A stretch of 33,687 bases of DNA, from the NCBI GenBank assembly GCA_027065775.1, contig JAMONN010000174.1, positions 1-33,687 of the forward strand, given 5' to 3'. Positions within the stretch are counted from its first letter, which is position 1. Each line of letters begins with the position of its first letter. The notes beneath the pieces were generated by a model that ran no database searches, was not told where the DNA came from, and saw nothing but the letters and a program-made list of their open reading frames with translations. This DNA is from Flavobacteriaceae bacterium. GTDB taxonomy: Bacteria; Bacteroidota; Bacteroidia; Flavobacteriales; Flavobacteriaceae. Shown piece after piece: positions 1,382 through 14,547 of the stretch. The position numbers were made by a program, and so were the translations under genes.

Positions 1382-2434
1382 CTAATCTTTGTCTTTATCA
1401 CTAAACCTCGTATTAACCATAGCTGTTGTTAGCATTTGTTTTAATTCTTTTGCTGTCGGGACTTTCCCTTTTAATTTATTCGGTAATTCGTGAGTTAATT
1501 TATATTCAGAAACTCCAATTGGTTTTGAACTTGACCTTAAACTATATTCTACTTCAATATTATCTTTCGTAGGGCATAGTATAATTCCAATTGATGGATT
1601 ATCATCTACTTGTTTTTCTTGTTCATCTAATAATTCAAGGTAGAAATTCATTTTTCCTGCAAATTCAGGCTCAAACTCCACAGTTTTTAATTCAATTGCT
1701 ACTAAGCATTTTAAAAATCTGTGATAGAAAAGCAAGTCAATAAAATACTCCTTTTGATTTAGTTTTAGTCGATATTGGTTTCCTATAAATGTAAATCCAT
1801 AACCAAGTTCTAATAATAAATCTCTGATATTTTCTACAAGTCGATTTTCTAATTCTCTTTCCAATATTGGTTTAGTTATTCCAAGAAAATCAAGGTTATA
1901 TTCACTTTTCATTGCTTCATTTGCTTGTTCTGATAAATGAACTGGCAAAGCTCTGTCAAAATTACTGAGTTTTGGATTTATAAGATGATGTTCATATGCA
2001 TTTGCCTTAATTTGATTTAATAAAACAGCTCTACTCCATCCTAATTTGTCGGTTGCAGTTAGATAATATGATTTTTCTTTATCATCTTTAATTTGATGCA
2101 TTATCAATAAATTCTGTCCCCAAGGTATTGTTAATGCAATTTTTAAAAGTTCAGTATTATCCTTATATTCCAAATAAAACTGACGCATTCTCCAAAGGTT
2201 TTGAGATGAATACCCTTTTGCTCCGTCAACTGTTTTGTTAATATCTCGCGATAATGTATCTACAATAGATTTTCCCCAATTATTATTTTCTTGATTTTTT
2301 ACAATCAACTTACCAAGTTCAAAATTTTGACCAATATGATACTTATTGAGTGATTTATATGCTTCATATTTTGCAGAATTAATTGTATCAATTACTGCTT
2401 TAAAGAAATCATTATATGCTGTTAACTTACTCAT
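1382..2434 (-). CDS. PDDEXK nuclease domain protein, YhcG / DUF1016 family
   Basis: This 350-residue protein has the two-part YhcG layout: an N-terminal helical DUF1016_N domain (about 10-180, including the YSSQNLWRMRQFY block at 75-87 and PWGQNLLIMHQIKD at 104-117) and a C-terminal PDDEXK nuclease domain (about 190-340). The nuclease core is visible as D233 in YFIDLLFYHR and E248-x-K250 in LVAIELK, the expected D...ExK arrangement. Length fits the family (about 340-370). Family members occur alone or in restriction-modification and defence loci; the exact substrate is not established. Here it stands without methylase or specificity subunits, next to a small DUF4177-like gene. Its promoter is flanked by two similar palindromes (2449-2473 and 2483-2510), suggesting tight repression. 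ATG at 2434 is the natural start. Probably an accessory, horizontally acquired defence-type gene. Confidence 0.85.
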   Translation of the reverse strand: MSKLTAYNDFFKAVIDTINSAKYEAYKSLNKYHIGQNFELGKLIVKNQENNNWGKSIVDTLSRDINKTVDGAKGYSSQNLWRMRQFYLEYKDNTELLKIALTIPWGQNLLIMHQIKDDKEKSYYLTATDKLGWSRAVLLNQIKANAYEHHLINPKLSNFDRALPVHLSEQANEAMKSEYNLDFLGITKPILERELENRLVENIRDLLLELGYGFTFIGNQYRLKLNQKEYFIDLLFYHRFLKCLVAIELKTVEFEPEFAGKMNFYLELLDEQEKQVDDNPSIGIILCPTKDNIEVEYSLRSSSKPIGVSEYKLTHELPNKLKGKVPTAKELKQMLTTAMVNTRFSDKDKD

Positions 2435-2448
2435 TCAATTTGTTTATT

Positions 2449-2473
2449 AATTCTCGCACACTGTGAGAGAAAA
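2449..2473. promoter_or_regulatory. Operator-like palindrome 1 upstream of the nuclease gene
   Basis: Arms ttctcgcaca (2451-2460) and tgtgagagaa (2462-2471) flank a single central base; one mismatch in the ten pairs. It overlaps the predicted transcription start of the nuclease gene on the minus strand and lies 15-39 bases before its ATG. The same half-site occurs in palindrome 2. A dimeric repressor site is inferred; no regulator gene is visible in the window. Confidence 0.55.
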
Positions 2474-2481
2474 CAAAAATA
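2474..2481 (-). promoter_or_regulatory. Bacteroidota -7 box of the nuclease promoter
   Basis: On the minus strand this reads TATTTTTG, matching TAnnTTTG. It is about 40 bases upstream of the nuclease ATG at 2434. The -33 region would fall inside palindrome 2, and a good TTTG is not seen there, so the promoter may be weak. Confidence 0.45.
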
Positions 2482-2482
2482 C

Positions 2483-2510
2483 AAATTCTCGTACAAGTGT
2501 GCGAGAATTT
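2483..2510. promoter_or_regulatory. Operator-like palindrome 2 upstream of the nuclease gene
   Basis: Thirteen-base arms (2483-2495 and 2498-2510) with one mismatch surround a two-base centre; the core half-sites are ttctcgtaca and tgtgcgagaa. The centre is about 35 bases from that of palindrome 1. It covers the -33 region of the predicted minus-strand promoter. Confidence 0.55.
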
Positions 2511-6550: not shown

Positions 6551-7132
6551 ATGATTACACATATAAGTGGCAAATTAGTGGAGAAAAACCCAACGCATGC
6601 AATAATTGATTGTAATGGTGTTGGTTATTTTCTAAATATTTCTTTAAATACTTTCTCAAAAATTCCAGATAAAGAAGGCCTTTTACTTTACACACATTTA
6701 AATGTTCGTGAAGATTCTCATACATTATTTGGTTTTTTCGATAAGTTAGAACGTGAAATATTTAGACTATTAGTTTCTGTTTCTGGTGTCGGACCAAGTA
6801 TTGCTAGAACCATGTTATCCTCAATGGATTGCGAACAAATACAACAAGCAATTGCTAGTGGTGATATACCAACAATTCAATCTGTAAAAGGTATTGGCGC
6901 AAAAACAGCACAACGAGTTATTATTGATTTAAAAGATAAAATTTTAAAAACCTACACTTTAACAGAAGAATCTGCAAGTTCTTACAATACAATTAAAGAC
7001 GAAGCGTTATCTGCTTTAGAAGTTTTAGGTTATACCAAAAGACAAGTAGAAAAATTAATACAAAAAATAGTACAAGAATCCCCTGATATAAGTCTTGAAA
7101 ATCTTATAAAAAGAGCTTTGAAAAACTTATAA
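6551..7132 (+). CDS. ruvA: Holliday junction branch migration protein RuvA
   Basis: RuvA binds the four-way DNA junction as a tetramer and loads the RuvB helicase during recombination and repair. The 193-residue product has the expected order: N-terminal OB fold (1-65, with MITHISGKL and GYFLNISLNTF), two helix-hairpin-helix motifs (74-89, SVSGVGPSIA, and 109-129, VKGIGAKTAQRV), and a flexible linker. The C-terminal helical domain that contacts RuvB (about 148-193) ends in LENLIKRALKNL. Length is normal. It is the first gene after a clear promoter and is followed after 32 bases by sprA, an arrangement that recurs in Flavobacteriia although the two functions are unrelated. Confidence 0.97.
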   Translation: MITHISGKLVEKNPTHAIIDCNGVGYFLNISLNTFSKIPDKEGLLLYTHLNVREDSHTLFGFFDKLEREIFRLLVSVSGVGPSIARTMLSSMDCEQIQQAIASGDIPTIQSVKGIGAKTAQRVIIDLKDKILKTYTLTEESASSYNTIKDEALSALEVLGYTKRQVEKLIQKIVQESPDISLENLIKRALKNL

Positions 7133-7164
7133 CGCTTAATGCGTAATAAAAACAGAAAAATATA

Positions 7165-10100
7165 GTGAAAAATACATATAAATTATTCTTTATTATCCTT
7201 TTAGTTAGTGCTTTTAATATAAATGCACAAACACCGGATAATACTACAGCGAACGACTCTATTCCTCCATTACCATATGATTTTAACGTAAATCAGAATG
7301 CACCTTTATTTTTAAACAGTACCAAATCGGAAGTTATTTACGATGCCGCAACTGGTAGATATATTTTTGCAGAAAAAATTGGCGACTACTTAGTCAAACG
7401 GCCAATTTATATGACTGCTGAAGAATACAAAGAATATAGATTAAATCGTGACATGTTAGATTATTACAAATCTAAAGTAAGCGCAAAAGATGGTAAAAAG
7501 AAAGGTAGTGATGAAGCACAAAAAGATTTATTACCAAAATATTATGTAAACTCTAAATTTTTTGAATCTATTTTTGGTTCAAACGAAATCGAAGTAAATG
7601 CACAAGGTAGTGTCGTGGTTTCTTTTGGTGTTTTATTTCAAAAAACGGAAAACCCAAGAATATCTGAACGCAATAGAAAAAGTACCACATTTGATTTTGA
7701 CCAACAAATTAGTGCTAGTATTAACGCAAAAGTTGGTACTAGATTAAATGTAAATATTAATTATGATACACAATCTACTTTTGATTTTCAGAATTTAATA
7801 AAATTAGAATATACACCAACCGAAGATGATATTATTCAAAAAATAGAAGTTGGTAATGTAAGCATGCCATTACAGAGTTCTTTAATTAATGGTGCGCAAA
7901 ATCTATTCGGTTTTAAAACCAAATTACAATTTGGTGCAACCGAAATTACAGCCGTTTTTGCAAAACAACAATCACAAACCAGAAGTGTTGCCGCACAAGG
8001 TGGTGCAACTATTCAAGAATTTGAATTAAAAGCAAGCGAATACGATAAAGACAGGCACTTTTTCTTAGCACAAAAATTTAGGGATAAATACGATACGGCG
8101 CTAGATAATTTTCCATTAATAAATAGTTCTGTAAATATAACAAGAGTAGAAGTTTGGATTACCAACAGAAGTAATCAAACCGAAAACGTTAGAAATATTG
8201 TTGCTATTGCAGATTTAGCCGAAGGTTTAGATTCAAATAATACCAATGGAAATATCGGTAATACTACCGATGTAAGTATAACTATAGGACAACACAATCC
8301 TTCAAATGAAGTAAATAGTTTAAATGATTTATTTACAAATACAGACATTAGATCTATTTCTACTATAAATACTGCATTTAGTTCCATAGGAACTTTTGGT
8401 CAAGGTACAGATTATACCATTTTAGAAAACGCACAAAAATTAATTGTAGGTAGAGATTTTACTATAAATCCATCTTTAGGTTATATTTCGTTAAATAGAG
8501 TTTTGAGCGAAAGTGAAGTACTTGCAGTAGCATATGAATACACAGAAGAAAGTGCAGGTCAAATAAACACCTATCAAGTAGGTGAATTATCTGGTAACGG
8601 AATTGATGCGCCAGATAATTTAATTGTAAAATTATTACGACCAGAAATAATTACAACAACACTACCTATTTGGGATTTACAGATGAAAAATGTGTATGAT
8701 TTACGTTCTTTTCAAATGAATTCAGATGGTTTTAGATTAGAAATATTGTATCAAGACCCAACCACTGGCGTACCAATTACAGTATTACAAAGTTCATCTA
8801 CCGAGAATATTACCACTAATGGATCTACTACTCCTAGAAATGTGAGAGACATACCTCTTTTAAATTTACTACGTTTTGACCGTTTAGATCAAACAGATAA
8901 TAATGAACCAAGAGGTGATGGTTTTTTTGATTATGTCGAAGGAATAACTGTAAATTCACAACAAGGTTTAATTTATTTTCCAATGGTAGAACCTTTTGGA
9001 GGCCATTTAGATGGTTTGGATGGTGATGGATTATTAAACCACCCAGATGATGAACTATTTATCTTTAGAGAAATGTATAATAGAACACAGGCCGACGCAC
9101 AAAATAATTTTCAAAGTAAAGATAGATATACCATTGCTGGTTATTACAAATCCGAAGGAAGAAATGGTATTCCACTAGGTGCGTTTAACGTACCAAGAGG
9201 TTCTGTAAATGTAACAACTGGCGGTAGAGTTTTAGTCGAAGGTGTAGATTATGTAGTAGATTATCAAATTGGTAATGTGCAAATTATCAATCCATCTTTA
9301 ATAGCATCAAACGCTCCAATTCAAGTTTCCGTAGAAACAAATAATGCATTTTCTACTCAAAACAGACGTTTTTTTGGTGTAGATGTACAACATAAATTTT
9401 CAGAAAATCTTGCTATTGGTGGAACATTTTTGAATTTGCGTGAAAGACCATTTACTCAAAAAGCACAATTTGGTAGCGAACCAGTAAATAATTCCATTGC
9501 AGGAATTAATTTTACTTACAATACAGAAGTGCCAAAATTAACTAAATGGGTAAATTATTTACCAAATATTGATACCGATGCGCCGTCTAATTTATCTATT
9601 AGAGCAGAAGCAGCATATTTAATTCCAAATTCACCTAAAGGTATTGAACTTAACGGCGAGGCAGCATCTTACTTAGATGATTTTGAAGGTACACAAATAC
9701 CATTAAATATAGATTCTCCTGAACAATGGAAAATGGCAAGTACACCACAAAACCAAACAGATGCTACCCTGAATTTTATTGGCGATGGTAGTAATTTAGA
9801 TTTTGGTAAAAAACGTGCAAGATTAGCTTGGTATAATATTGATCGTTTATTTTATGGTTCTAATCTTAGACCTGGCAATATTGATGATGAAGAATTGTCT
9901 AGAGAAGAAGTTAGAAGTATTGGTTTTAATGAACTATTTCCTAATTTAGATTTAGACATTACACAAACAAATATTGTTAGAACATTCGATTTAGCTTATT
10001 ATCCCGAAGAACGTGGTTCTTATAATTATGATGCTAATGCAGCAAATATCAACCTAAATACTGGTGAATTTACAAATCCCGAAGAACGTTGGGGTGGAAT

Positions 10101-13100
10101 TATGCGATCTTTAACTACCACAGATTTTCAACAAGCAAATGTAGAATATATTCAATTTTGGTTAATGAATCCTTACGATAATTATTCTATAAATGAAGCG
10201 GAAGGTGGTGATCCAAATTTTAATCCTGAAAATAATACGGGTGAATTATATTTTAATTTAGGTAATATTTCGGAAGATATTTTACATGATAATAGAAAAA
10301 TGTTTGAAAATGGTTTGCCAGAAGATGGCAATCAGATAAATGATGATAATGTTAATTTCACAAATTATTCTTCGATACCAACTATACAATCTTTATTAAA
10401 TGCTTTTGATGAAGACGATAATTCAAGACCTAATCAAGATGTTGGTTTAGATGGTTTAAATGATGCCGATGAATTCAATGAAAATCTTAATAATAATGAA
10501 GAACCACTTGCTAATCCTGGACATCGATTTGGCGATTATATCACTTTTACGAACACCTTAAATGGCCAGGCAAGAACAGATGCTCAAAATGATATATCTA
10601 GTGATAATTACCGACACTTTAGAACTGGCGCAGATGGTTCTGTTTTATCTAGATATAAAAACTATAATCGTACACAAGGTAATTCGCAAACTATAAACAA
10701 TTCTGGCGATTTTCCAACTGCAGCAACACAATTTCCCGATGCTGAAGATTTGAATAGAGATCAAACTATGAGTGTTGCGGAAGGTTATTATCAATATAGA
10801 ATACCAATTAGTCAAGCCGGTTTTGTAGTTGGCACAAACAATATTGTTGATTCAAAAACAACTTCTGTAACTCTTGCAAATGGTCAAGAAAGAGATACTA
10901 GATGGTATCAATTTAGAATACCCGTACAAAGTGGTGGCGAAGCAATAGGTGGTATTTCTAGCTTTAATTCTATTCGTTTTATAAGAATGTTTGTGACTAA
11001 ATTTCAAAAACCTATTGTTTTACGATTTGGTCAATTAGAATTAGTAAGAGGTAATTGGAGAAGATATACCAAGACTTTAGTTGAACCAACACCTATACCA
11101 TTAGTAGAATTAGACAATACTGAACAAGCAAAATTTGAAGTTGGTGTAGTAAGTATTCAAGAAAATGAAAGAAGAATACCAATACCTTACATATTACCTC
11201 CAGGAGTTGTAAGAGAACGTCTACAAGGTAGTACCTCAATTCAACAGCAAAACGAACAATCTTTAACCATAAAAGTAACCGATTTACCAATTGGCGAAAC
11301 TAGAGCTGTATTTAAAAATACAACTTTTGATATACGTATGTTTAAAAAGTATAAAATGTTTATACATGCAGAAAGCATTAACAGTTCCAACCCAGTAGAT
11401 AATGGCGAAATTGCTGCCATTATTAGGCTAGGTAGTGATTTAGTAGACAATTACTACGAAATAGAAATACCATTAAACATAACCGCATTAACAGGAGAAA
11501 CTTCTGCCGAAGATGTATGGAAAAATAATTTAGATGCTGCTTTAGAAGAGTTTGGAAAACTTCGTTTAGAACGTTTTGAAAGTCCAACTCCAGAGCCAAA
11601 CATTTTATATCCAGAAAATGGTAAAGATTTTGGAACTTACAAACTATATGTTAAAGGTAATCCAACATTAGCAAAAGTAAAAAGCATGATGCTTGGTATT
11701 AAAAATATTAGTAATACTCCTAAAAGTGCCGAGTTATGGTTTAACGAAATGCGTGTTGTAGATTTCGATAATGAAGGCGGTTGGTCTGCTGTTGCAAATA
11801 TAAATGCAAATTTTGCAGATTTTGCAGATATAGCTGTTAGTGGTGCAATGGCAACCAAAGGATTTGGTTCTTTAGATCAAAAAGTAAATGAAAGAAGTCA
11901 AGATGATACACAACAATATGATATTGTTGGAAATATTAACTTAGGGCAATTATTACCGAAAAATTATGGTATAAAATTACCATTAAATTTTAGTGTTGCT
12001 GAAGAATTTAAAGATCCTAAATACGATCCGCAATATCAAGATGTTTTATTCGATGAGACTACAGAAGCTAATAGTCCTAATAAAAATAACGCTACCGATT
12101 ATACTAAAAGGAGAAGTTTCAGTTTAATAAACGTTAGAAAAGAAAAAACAAATAATAAGAAAAAAGCACATATTTACGATGTAGAAAACCTATCTGTTTC
12201 CTTTGCTTATAATGATGTTTTTCATCAAGATTATAATGTAGAAAAATTTAATGACCAGAATGTTAGAGCTGGCGCAACCTATAATTATAGTTTTGAATCT
12301 AAAAGTTACGAACCATTTAAAAAGTCAAAACTTTTAGGTAAATACAAATATCTAAAAATATTAAAAGACTTTAATATAAATCCTTTACCATCAAATTTTT
12401 CGGTGAATTCAAATATTATTAGATCTTATAACGAGCAATTATCTAGACCTTTAGTTACAGGTACAAATCTACCAGACTTACCTACTTTAGAAAGAAGACG
12501 TTTTGCTTTTGATTGGGATTATAGTATTGCATATGATTTAACTAAATCATTACAATTCAATTTTAGAGCAGCAAATACTTACATTAACGATGAATTTGAT
12601 AGAGATATAGATAATAGAGTTATTGACGGACAACTTTTCGATAAATTTTTCACTATAGGTAGGCCAGAACATTATACGCAAGTTTTAGATGCAACCTATA
12701 AATTACCACTTAATAAAATACCTATTCTTGATTTTATTACAGCAACTTATAATTACACTGCAAATTTTGATTGGCGAGCAAGTTCTATAGACAATATTGC
12801 TTTGGTTGGTAATACCATACAGAATGCAAATACGCATAATGTTAATGCCGATTTAAACATGAATAAATTGTATAAAAAAATTGGTGTAAATAAATTATTT
12901 AAAAAGAGTGCTAATAATAAAGCGAAACGCTTAAAAAAGAAAGAAAAAGCGAAAAAGAAAAAAGCAAAAGAATTAACTAAAGCTATAAAAGAAGCATTAA
13001 AAAAAGGAGATAGTATTTTAGTTGCAAAATTAGAAAAGAAGAAAAAAGCAACATCATTTTCTAACCCAAAACCTAAAACAGATAGTAGTTCCGCAGACAA

Positions 13101-14547
13101 TTCTTCTGTAAAAGGTAAAAAAGGCAGTAGGTCTAGTTCTAGAAGTAGATCATTCCGTAAAAAATTATCTTTTCCACAAAAATTAATATTAGCAGCAGTA
13201 GATGTTGCTACTTCGGTTAAAAAAGTAAGAATAAGTTATACCGAAAATAACAGTACTTTATTACCTGGTTATGTTCCTGAAATCGGTTTTTTAGGTAGAG
13301 ATAATGCTTCAGGTGGTTTAGCACCAACATTAGGTTTTGTATTTGGTAGTCAAAGTTCTATATTAGATAGAGCGCTAGATAATAACTGGTTAGTGACTAG
13401 AGATAATGACCCTAATAGTCCGTTTTATAGTAAAACATTTAACAATACTCATTTTGAAGATTTAAAATTAAACTTCGATTTAAAACCTACAAAAAATTTA
13501 AAAATAGATTTAATTGCAAGCAAAACAAAAACAAGAAATATCTCACAACAGTTAGATGTTATTACAGAAATCGATTTAAACGGAAATACAACAGTAGTAA
13601 ATGATCCGTTTGCATCACCAATAACAGAAGTTGGTAATTTTGCGATTAGTAATATCATGATTGGTACTGCATTTAAAAATAGCGATGCCTTATTTGAGGA
13701 GTTTTTGAGTAATAGAAATGTAATCGCTGAACGTTTAGCAAGTGATGCTGGCCAAAATAATACAAACGGTTTCGGAGAAAACAATCAAAGTGTTTTACTG
13801 CCAGCATTTTTCGCCGCTTATGCAGGCAGAGATGTAAATAGTGTAAAAACAAGTGCTTTTAGAGATATACCAATCCCAAATTGGCGCGTTTCTTATAAAG
13901 GTTTATCCAAATTAAAAGTATTTAAAAAAGTATTTAGAACCATTACTTTAGAACATAATTATCAATCTTCTTATTCTATTTTAGGTTATAATAGTAACTT
14001 ACAGTTTGGACAAGAACCTTTTGACGCAGTTGGAAATCACATTAACAAATTACAATTTCAAGGAGTAAATTTAGTAGAGCAATTTTCACCTTTAATTAAA
14101 TTAGATGTAAAAATGAGAAACTCCTTTTCTTTTAAAGGTGAAATCAGAAAAGACAGATCTCTTAATTTAAACTTTGCAAATAGTTCTATAACCGAAATCG
14201 AAGGTGATGAATACATTGTTGGTTTAGGGTATAAATTTAAAGATGTAAAATGGACAGTTAAACCTGGTGGAAAAAAGACAGTATTTAAAGGTGATATTAA
14301 TCTAAAAGCAGATTTTGGTATTAGAGATAATGTTACTATGATTAGATCAATTTCAAACGAAACAGATCAAATTACTGGCGGACAACGTATTTTTACACTT
14401 AAATTTACTGCTGATTACAACTTAAATAAAAACTTGATGGCATCTTTTTTCTATGATCAAAATTCATCAAGATTTAAAATATCTACTACATTTCCAAGAA
14501 ATTCTATAAGTACTGGTATAAGTATTAGATATAATATCGGAAATTAA
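7165..14547 (+). CDS. sprA: SprA, type IX secretion outer-membrane translocon / gliding protein
   Basis: This 2,460-residue protein matches SprA (Sov in Porphyromonas), the very large outer-membrane beta-barrel through which type IX substrates, including gliding adhesins, leave the periplasm. A signal peptide is clear (KLFFIILLVSAFNINAQ). Family features seen are the early motif NVNQNAPLFLNS, the block SINAKVGTRLNVNINYDTQS, repeated DxDxxG-like acidic turns in extracellular loops, alternating strand patterns throughout, and a C-terminal barrel end ISTGISIRYNIGN. Length is close to the roughly 2,400 usual for the family. The start is GTG at 7165; no ATG follows before the signal peptide, so GTG is required. 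A lysine/serine-rich insert lies around residues 1900-2005 (12865-13170). It is cotranscribed with ruvA upstream and gcvH 25 bases downstream. Confidence 0.95.
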   Translation: MKNTYKLFFIILLVSAFNINAQTPDNTTANDSIPPLPYDFNVNQNAPLFLNSTKSEVIYDAATGRYIFAEKIGDYLVKRPIYMTAEEYKEYRLNRDMLDYYKSKVSAKDGKKKGSDEAQKDLLPKYYVNSKFFESIFGSNEIEVNAQGSVVVSFGVLFQKTENPRISERNRKSTTFDFDQQISASINAKVGTRLNVNINYDTQSTFDFQNLIKLEYTPTEDDIIQKIEVGNVSMPLQSSLINGAQNLFGFKTKLQFGATEITAVFAKQQSQTRSVAAQGGATIQEFELKASEYDKDRHFFLAQKFRDKYDTALDNFPLINSSVNITRVEVWITNRSNQTENVRNIVAIADLAEGLDSNNTNGNIGNTTDVSITIGQHNPSNEVNSLNDLFTNTDIRSISTINTAFSSIGTFGQGTDYTILENAQKLIVGRDFTINPSLGYISLNRVLSESEVLAVAYEYTEESAGQINTYQVGELSGNGIDAPDNLIVKLLRPEIITTTLPIWDLQMKNVYDLRSFQMNSDGFRLEILYQDPTTGVPITVLQSSSTENITTNGSTTPRNVRDIPLLNLLRFDRLDQTDNNEPRGDGFFDYVEGITVNSQQGLIYFPMVEPFGGHLDGLDGDGLLNHPDDELFIFREMYNRTQADAQNNFQSKDRYTIAGYYKSEGRNGIPLGAFNVPRGSVNVTTGGRVLVEGVDYVVDYQIGNVQIINPSLIASNAPIQVSVETNNAFSTQNRRFFGVDVQHKFSENLAIGGTFLNLRERPFTQKAQFGSEPVNNSIAGINFTYNTEVPKLTKWVNYLPNIDTDAPSNLSIRAEAAYLIPNSPKGIELNGEAASYLDDFEGTQIPLNIDSPEQWKMASTPQNQTDATLNFIGDGSNLDFGKKRARLAWYNIDRLFYGSNLRPGNIDDEELSREEVRSIGFNELFPNLDLDITQTNIVRTFDLAYYPEERGSYNYDANAANINLNTGEFTNPEERWGGIMRSLTTTDFQQANVEYIQFWLMNPYDNYSINEAEGGDPNFNPENNTGELYFNLGNISEDILHDNRKMFENGLPEDGNQINDDNVNFTNYSSIPTIQSLLNAFDEDDNSRPNQDVGLDGLNDADEFNENLNNNEEPLANPGHRFGDYITFTNTLNGQARTDAQNDISSDNYRHFRTGADGSVLSRYKNYNRTQGNSQTINNSGDFPTAATQFPDAEDLNRDQTMSVAEGYYQYRIPISQAGFVVGTNNIVDSKTTSVTLANGQERDTRWYQFRIPVQSGGEAIGGISSFNSIRFIRMFVTKFQKPIVLRFGQLELVRGNWRRYTKTLVEPTPIPLVELDNTEQAKFEVGVVSIQENERRIPIPYILPPGVVRERLQGSTSIQQQNEQSLTIKVTDLPIGETRAVFKNTTFDIRMFKKYKMFIHAESINSSNPVDNGEIAAIIRLGSDLVDNYYEIEIPLNITALTGETSAEDVWKNNLDAALEEFGKLRLERFESPTPEPNILYPENGKDFGTYKLYVKGNPTLAKVKSMMLGIKNISNTPKSAELWFNEMRVVDFDNEGGWSAVANINANFADFADIAVSGAMATKGFGSLDQKVNERSQDDTQQYDIVGNINLGQLLPKNYGIKLPLNFSVAEEFKDPKYDPQYQDVLFDETTEANSPNKNNATDYTKRRSFSLINVRKEKTNNKKKAHIYDVENLSVSFAYNDVFHQDYNVEKFNDQNVRAGATYNYSFESKSYEPFKKSKLLGKYKYLKILKDFNINPLPSNFSVNSNIIRSYNEQLSRPLVTGTNLPDLPTLERRRFAFDWDYSIAYDLTKSLQFNFRAANTYINDEFDRDIDNRVIDGQLFDKFFTIGRPEHYTQVLDATYKLPLNKIPILDFITATYNYTANFDWRASSIDNIALVGNTIQNANTHNVNADLNMNKLYKKIGVNKLFKKSANNKAKRLKKKEKAKKKKAKELTKAIKEALKKGDSILVAKLEKKKKATSFSNPKPKTDSSSADNSSVKGKKGSRSSSRSRSFRKKLSFPQKLILAAVDVATSVKKVRISYTENNSTLLPGYVPEIGFLGRDNASGGLAPTLGFVFGSQSSILDRALDNNWLVTRDNDPNSPFYSKTFNNTHFEDLKLNFDLKPTKNLKIDLIASKTKTRNISQQLDVITEIDLNGNTTVVNDPFASPITEVGNFAISNIMIGTAFKNSDALFEEFLSNRNVIAERLASDAGQNNTNGFGENNQSVLLPAFFAAYAGRDVNSVKTSAFRDIPIPNWRVSYKGLSKLKVFKKVFRTITLEHNYQSSYSILGYNSNLQFGQEPFDAVGNHINKLQFQGVNLVEQFSPLIKLDVKMRNSFSFKGEIRKDRSLNLNFANSSITEIEGDEYIVGLGYKFKDVKWTVKPGGKKTVFKGDINLKADFGIRDNVTMIRSISNETDQITGGQRIFTLKFTADYNLNKNLMASFFYDQNSSRFKISTTFPRNSISTGISIRYNIGN

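Follow-up and report, generated by a model that had tools for sequence, protein, structure and literature searches.

Paired palindromes at the promoter of a DUF1016/YhcG nuclease gene: putative operators of the nuclease's own ParB-like domain

Introduction

In type II restriction-modification systems, the onset of nuclease expression after transfer is timed at palindromic operators by a controller (C) protein, which is the product of a separate small gene. KorB of plasmid RK2, a ParB-family protein, represses promoters from palindromic operators. Here we describe a DUF1016/YhcG nuclease gene of a Flavobacteriaceae bacterium (assembly GCA_027065775.1, contig JAMONN010000174.1, positions 1 to 33,687; this whole stretch of 33,687 nucleotides is called the window) with two matching palindromes at its promoter, which, to judge from sequence comparison and structure modelling, are probably operators of the nuclease's own ParB-like N-terminal domain, so that the nuclease would be its own repressor. 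KorB differs from this nuclease in being a separate regulator of many promoters that has no nuclease domain.

By analogy, the nearest functional parallel comes from phage T4, whose homing endonuclease I-TevI, in the available part of the source, represses its own gene (PMC2988022). The two would have in common a nuclease acting as autorepressor (as proposed here), an operator over the gene's own promoter (as placed here from a promoter consensus) and a DNA-binding part that is apart from the catalytic part. As described in the same part, I-TevI is an intron-borne GIY-YIG enzyme with one operator that resembles its homing site, whereas the nuclease in the window has a PD-(D/E)XK domain, a ParB-like domain, two palindromic operators and no known homing site.

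A second comparison is with ParB and Noc at their sites, parS and the Noc-binding site (NBS), as covered by the part of PMC7383237 consulted. The likeness lies in the predicted fold of the N-domain, in short palindromic sites, in the diversification of specificity through a few helix residues and in the equivalence of residue 82 of the nuclease to N178 of ParB. However, ParB and Noc serve chromosome maintenance, whereas here the site is at a promoter, the partner domain is a nuclease and no ParB_N domain was found by Pfam. Escherichia coli YhcG and the DUF1016 family share the same two Pfam domains with the nuclease in the window, and in the available parts of PMC1189080 and PMC2672614 their N-domain is described as 'mainly alpha-helical', with no confident match to known structures. 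DUF1016/YhcG nucleases are widespread and listed as candidate defence genes, and in the portions of the literature consulted the N-domain is without an assigned role; those of the open-access papers on DUF1016 or YhcG nucleases describe no operator or self-regulation.

Results and discussion

Two palindromes with a common half-site frame the nuclease promoter

The product of the nuclease gene (Table 1) matched Pfam DUF1016_N (E 1.6e-34) and YhcG_C (E 5.9e-63), both above the curated cut-offs, and also the PADLOC candidate defence family PDC-S02 (E 5.4e-126), a hidden Markov model match that makes an anti-phage role a candidate one. The catalytic motif E-D-ExK, as given for the DUF1016/YhcG family in the available part of PMC1189080, is intact in this protein (E192, D233, E248 and K250).

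An earlier reading of the DNA, made from the sequence alone (the sequence-only reading), had placed a minus-strand -7 box between two palindromes with the same half-site, one over the -33 region and the other over the likely transcription start. All of this was borne out. The plus-strand CAAAAATA reads TATTTTTG (TAnnTTTG) on the minus strand, exactly as claimed, and lies between an upstream palindrome (P1; ttctcgtaca-ag-tgtgcgagaa on the plus strand) and a downstream palindrome (P2; ttctcgcaca-c-tgtgagagaa), each with 9/10 arm pairs; their outermost arms (2449-2462 and 2496-2509) are inverted copies of one another over 14 nt without a mismatch. Because TAnnTTTG boxes occupy -12 to -5 in Flavobacterium psychrophilum (PMC9723704, in the part consulted), the start was placed by arithmetic at 2469, and therefore P1 would span about -38 to -17 and P2 about -2 to +19.

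Table 1. Features of the nuclease locus (window coordinates)
Feature	Position	Strand	Basis or detail
DUF1016/YhcG nuclease gene, 350 aa; proposed autorepressor	1382..2434	-	Pfam and PADLOC matches
PD-(D/E)XK nuclease domain, residues 173-326	1457..1918	-	E192, D233, E248, K250 present
N-domain part aligning with ParB/Noc DNA-binding domains, residues 34-152	1979..2335	-	model and VIA-align
Presumed recognition helix, residues 77-90	2165..2206	-	model; residue 82 codon 2189-2191
Downstream palindrome P2, putative operator 2, over the start	2451..2471	-	sense TTCTCTCACA-G-TGTGCGAGAA
Inferred transcription start, +1	2469..2469	-	arithmetic from TAnnTTTG at -12 to -5
-7 box TATTTTTG (TAnnTTTG)	2474..2481	-	sequence; same consensus in relatives' P1-P2 spacers
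Upstream palindrome P1, putative operator 1	2486..2507	-	sense TTCTCGCACA-CT-TGTACGAGAA; position via -7 box

A single palindrome is unremarkable, because the window holds 12 of P1/P2 quality and 60 dinucleotide shuffles gave nearly as many (mean 9.5). P1 and P2 are the window's only pair with a common half-site at most 70 nt apart, and none of the shuffles (0/60) gave any such pair. The half-site TTCTCGCACA occurs three times in the bacterium's own genome (an assembly of 2.77 Mb in 281 contigs, 87% complete), twice at P1/P2 and once on a different contig, where there is no palindrome. A REP-type (repetitive extragenic palindromic) or other dispersed repeat identity was ruled out for the palindromes, as the pair pattern is found at one place in this genome. 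One claim of the sequence-only reading had to be dropped, namely that a repressor could contact both sites from nearly one face of the helix: with 10.5 bp to a helical turn, the centre distance of 35.5 bp amounts to about 3.4 turns, and among 25 two-site loci it ranges from 35.5 to 50 bp, mostly 36-37.

The layout recurs upstream of related nucleases

Relatives were collected by a scan of 85,000 species genomes, from which 79 loci were obtained (the best 80 of 270 being kept); loci without an identified start codon were excluded from the counts of upstream palindromes. Among the 39 loci of at least 50% identity with enough upstream sequence (window included), P2 was present at its expected place with at least 8/10 arm pairs in 31, P1 likewise in 27 and both in 23, compared with 7.7%, 11.3% and 0.8%, respectively, in shuffles. 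Below 50% identity the figures for 65 loci were 3, 3 and 0. The two outcomes that the sequence-only reading had named as telling against it, palindromes missing upstream of orthologous nucleases or strewn over the genome at random, were looked for and not seen, and the operator-like layout stands.

On the protein tree the palindrome carriers group in a starred clade of 42 rows (96/85), which spans several Bacteroidota orders. Two rows (L046 and L028) have no upstream sequence; of the 40 that could be scored, 39 have P2 at 7/10 arm pairs or better and 34 at 8/10 or better. The centre of P2 lies 21-30 nt upstream of the ATG wherever the ATG is known, and TAnnTTTG occurs in the P1-P2 spacer of 12 of the 25 two-site loci (shuffled spacers: mean 0.82, maximum 5 in 2000 draws).

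The bacterium's own genome has six further DUF1016 loci (27-33% identity to the nuclease), and a P1/P2 pair was looked for upstream of each and found at none, L010 having a single, unlike palindrome. Viral contigs gave one locus in one search and 38 in another, none of the 38 with the palindrome pair; all but one fragment of these were at most 45% identical to the window protein. When genomes across the order and the class were searched for further clade members, they yielded L141 and L145, which have F82 and no pair, as well as L142 and L144, whose residue 82 and operators match those of L064 and L019 and which were left out of the counts.

Extra palindromes of the CTGCAACA..TGTTGCAG type were seen at -134 to -116 from the ATG in L043 and at -143 to -116 in L118. 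The latter belongs to a DUF1016 branch outside the clade, and self-regulation may be wider than the clade.

The palindromes change together with the nuclease

Half-sites vary over the clade (TTCTCGCACA, TTCTCTCACA, TTCTATCACA, TTCTCCAACA, TTCTCTAACA, TTCTCTATCA, TATACCAACC, AACTGAAACA and TACTGCAACA) around a mostly constant CA..TG core; they differ between subfamilies and are usually alike within a locus. In a pair test on the 25 loci, from which L040 had been dropped by hand, the half-sites of P1 and P2 agreed at 6.54/8 positions within a locus and at 5.12/8 between loci, and 0/20000 permutations reached 6.54. For the operator comparisons L048 and L093 were also dropped by hand. Operator distance followed nuclease-tree distance (r 0.69 for 36 loci; 0/5000 permutations) and not host order (r -0.06 for the 29 loci with an order label). 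The sites, their recurrence and a tie to the nuclease rather than to host order or neighbouring genes are seen in the sequences themselves.

Another idea is that the palindromes are hairpins in a leader RNA, serving as attenuator, stability element or ribosome block, instead of operators in DNA. P2 falls within the 5' leader as inferred, where it could fold into a stem, but P1 lies upstream of the inferred start. Mismatches in the arms are mostly not of the G-U kind (3 sense G-U, 9 antisense G-U and 49 other, so that sense G-U makes up just 3/61), the centres of 1-2 nt leave no loop unless the conserved CA..TG core opens, and the same half-site is kept at both sites, which an RNA stem would not need. 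We consider RNA hairpins very improbable.

As to the factor that binds, the sequence-only reading had seen no regulator encoded nearby and had named a host factor or the nuclease itself as possible ligands. The first point holds beyond the window: when 586 open reading frames (ORFs) from up to 3 kb on each side were clustered, no cluster occurred in more than 2/36 loci (several flanks end at contig ends), and the nuclease is the only gene common to the 36 loci compared. In these loci no shared neighbour was found that could be a separate regulator gene adjoining the nuclease, which sets them apart from restriction systems under C-protein control. A search of ten relatives' genomes with one C7 operator pattern, allowing at most one mismatch, gave 12 places in 8 genomes, all of them 15-76 nt upstream of a nuclease ATG. 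The genomes of L034 and L064 gave no match because their own sites differ from the pattern by more than one base, and a looser operator pattern had no match in five same-genus genomes. For the searched C7 pattern these results exclude a wide regulon in the ten genomes, and since the pattern was found only at nuclease promoters, a ligand encoded by the locus is favoured.

A regulator encoded by the host, acting at the palindromes to keep the acquired nuclease under control in the manner of a global silencer, would suit the operator layout, which is compatible with any dimeric repressor. However, operator sequence does not track host order, half-sites differ among nucleases within one host order, the pattern has no wider regulon, its matches in the ten genomes all being at the nuclease promoter, and the same-genus genomes searched were without a site; control by the host is quite improbable. 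Of the two ligands first named, the host factor finds no support, and the nuclease itself is favoured by the correlation with its tree, by the promoter-only matches and by the ParB/Noc-like N-domain and residue 82 described below.

The sites might also be cutting or integration targets of the nuclease, of a homing or resolvase type, with their position at the promoter being secondary. A predicted DNA-binding domain joined to an intact PD-(D/E)XK motif would fit such a role, as would the spread of the gene over unrelated flanks. Against this, the sites are placed in a fixed manner around the -7 box and upstream of the ATG, the genomes searched gave no further copy at any other place, and a nuclease whose gene lay between sites that it cuts would, in the absence of protection, cleave that gene in its own host. 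A role as targets of this kind is improbable.

The modelled N-domain resembles the DNA-binding domain of ParB and Noc

The model of the N-domain has a mean predicted local distance difference test (pLDDT) score of 91.8 and a predicted template modelling (pTM) score of 0.81. When 75 Foldseek candidates were aligned with VIA-align, the top seven rows were all ParB, Noc or Spo0J (Z 8.7 to 6.7, 89-103 residues, root mean square deviation 2.1-3.1) and the next row had a Z of 4.0, values to be read with the caution that Z below about 13 can be common for helical folds. The model of the full-length nuclease aligned with Noc bound to its site (Z 9.8). In sequence searches two paralogues from the same genome, L008 (22.2 bits, E 1.6e-4) and L010 (19.5 bits, E 1.1e-3), fell just short of the Pfam HTH_ParB cut-off of 22.6 bits, ParB_N was absent among the Pfam matches of the nuclease at E 0.001, and a search against sequences of solved structures gave one chance match for the protein query (E 0.83) and none for the alignment A1 query (55/64 listed loci, nine being left out by hand). 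The resemblance to ParB/Noc is thus one of modelled structure, with only a weak link at the level of sequence.

Residue 82 and operator base 7

Within the presumed recognition helix, residue 82 lines up with ParB N178, as read from L008 and a relative's ParB on the HTH_ParB profile (alignments read ungapped locally). According to the part of PMC7383237 consulted, N178 makes contact with parS and is a residue that ParB and Noc both conserve. Among all columns of the nuclease, residue 82 was the best for separating operator classes. R82 occurs in 22 loci, in 21 of which base 7 is only C, the window having three C and one T; in the 14 loci with N82 (6), Y82 (7) or D82 (1), base 7 is always A; and in the two loci with K82 (L032 and L064, separate on the tree) C and A are mixed. 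A was found at base 7 in 0/78 half-sites with R82 and in 3/8 with K82 (Fisher 5e-4, half-sites not being independent). Arginine facing the G opposite C7, and asparagine facing A7, are familiar pairings. Two pairs of loci in this set (L014/L015 and L030/L031) are near copies. L114 and L118 (38-42% identity, Y82, one AACA..TGTT palindrome each) agree with the rule, as was noticed after the fact; L054, L072 and L073 have Y82, yet no pair of the AACA..TGTT type. The DNA-binding fold and the specificity residue are thus supported by prediction, and the apparent link between residue 82 and base 7 rests on one or two tree changes and the two K cases.

It follows from these few changes, and from the many columns examined, that palindromes and nuclease might share their history by linkage alone, the match between residue 82 and base 7 being a coincidence of one or two branches. 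Nevertheless, neutral linkage would not hold four changing half-sites matched within a locus, nor would it set their positions; the best column is where ParB has a residue that contacts parS, within the presumed recognition helix; and the two separate K82 rows are the very ones with mixed C/A. Linkage alone has very little chance of being the explanation.

The nuclease as the proposed repressor of its own gene

In the mechanism that we propose, a stand-alone DUF1016/YhcG nuclease would join an N-terminal, ParB/Noc-like DNA-binding domain to a PD-(D/E)XK nuclease behind it, and one dimer would bind each 22-bp palindrome, with P1 over the -33 region and P2 over the start, on either side of the -7 box. 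Bound dimers would exclude RNA polymerase once the protein level suffices. A transferred gene would be briefly unregulated, make protein and then keep its own expression low, ending up self-limited because operator and repressor would move as one small unit. Dimer binding, repression rather than activation, and an operator that is bound uncut are parts of this scheme that we infer.

Several results weigh against it. L093, although a member of the clade, has neither palindrome, 9/39 P2 carriers (L014, L015, L033, L034 and L036-L040) have no recognisable P1, the two palindromes of L047 are unlike each other in their outer halves, and TAnnTTTG is found in the spacers of fewer than half of the two-site loci. 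Linkage by itself could make operator and protein trees agree. For the fold, Foldseek alone gave nothing for the N-domain at E 0.001 (best E for the ParB/Noc family 3.9), HTH_ParB matched 0/56 N-domains of alignment A2 at E 0.1, and hhalign of the N-domain with ParB alignment A3 was negative (probability 0.2). The switch between R82/C7 and the other classes amounts to 2 tree changes only, and with just 1-2 independent pairs (1 when starred branches are counted, 2 when all are) significance is out of reach for a sign test; column 340, in a low-confidence disordered tail, splits the operator classes as well, and a nearly complete split is seen at columns 9 and 302.

With these points counted in, self-repression through the ParB-like domain is the most probable reading, and it narrows the original choice of tight repression by a host factor or by the nuclease to an operator of the nuclease's own domain. 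Should the N-domain indeed read a diversifying palindrome in the manner of ParB/Noc, the promoter of each such gene would hold the sequence that its product recognises, so that specificity would be readable from genome sequence and a substrate would be ready for binding assays. It would also explain how a nuclease that could do harm can be passed between distant Bacteroidota with no partner gene to restrain it. A bolder version, which we regard as unlikely, is that the ParB-like domain sets both the nuclease targets and the regulation of its own gene, operator and target specificity diversifying together: the operators would be uncut decoys of the target, sites on invading DNA would titrate the protein off the promoter and raise expression, and one 1.3-kb gene would be sensor, regulator and effector of defence.

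Surroundings of the nuclease gene

In the closest relatives (L013, L016-L027, L041 and L064; window 1382-1420 and downstream) end motifs are shared despite different flanking genes, and at the outer ends a 5' GTTAGCATT-like motif was found by pattern in 10/36 loci and a 3' CATAGC-like motif in 12/36. The nuclease gene looks as if it moved as a cassette of about 1.3 kb, and by pattern the arrangement could be called integron-like. A 90%-identical nuclease (L188; NZ_CP116302.1, 5001-6035) lies on a 22.6-kb plasmid of Tenacibaculum finnmarkense, with two genes for restriction S subunits close by; of the palindromes, only P2 is retained in L014 and L015, which are nearly identical to it.

Upstream of the palindromes in the window there is a small minus-strand ORF of 57 aa (2530-2703) with no Pfam match at E 0.01, and then a hairpin-rich intergenic repeat (2740-2835; GCTAACGATTATATATAAAATCG...) with 22 matches in its own genome. 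Fourteen of these (self included) span at least 60 bases at 74% identity or more, and the repeat resembles cassette or repeat ends. Further on, RuvA and SprA (motility/secretion) genes lie beside a malic enzyme gene (6551-14547), an ordinary flavobacterial stretch. Beside a copy of the 2740-2835 repeat on another contig of this genome (C122; L191, 1590-1660), repeated CGTATCACAAT motifs precede an uncharacterised gene and resemble a further operator pair, again in front of an accessory gene.
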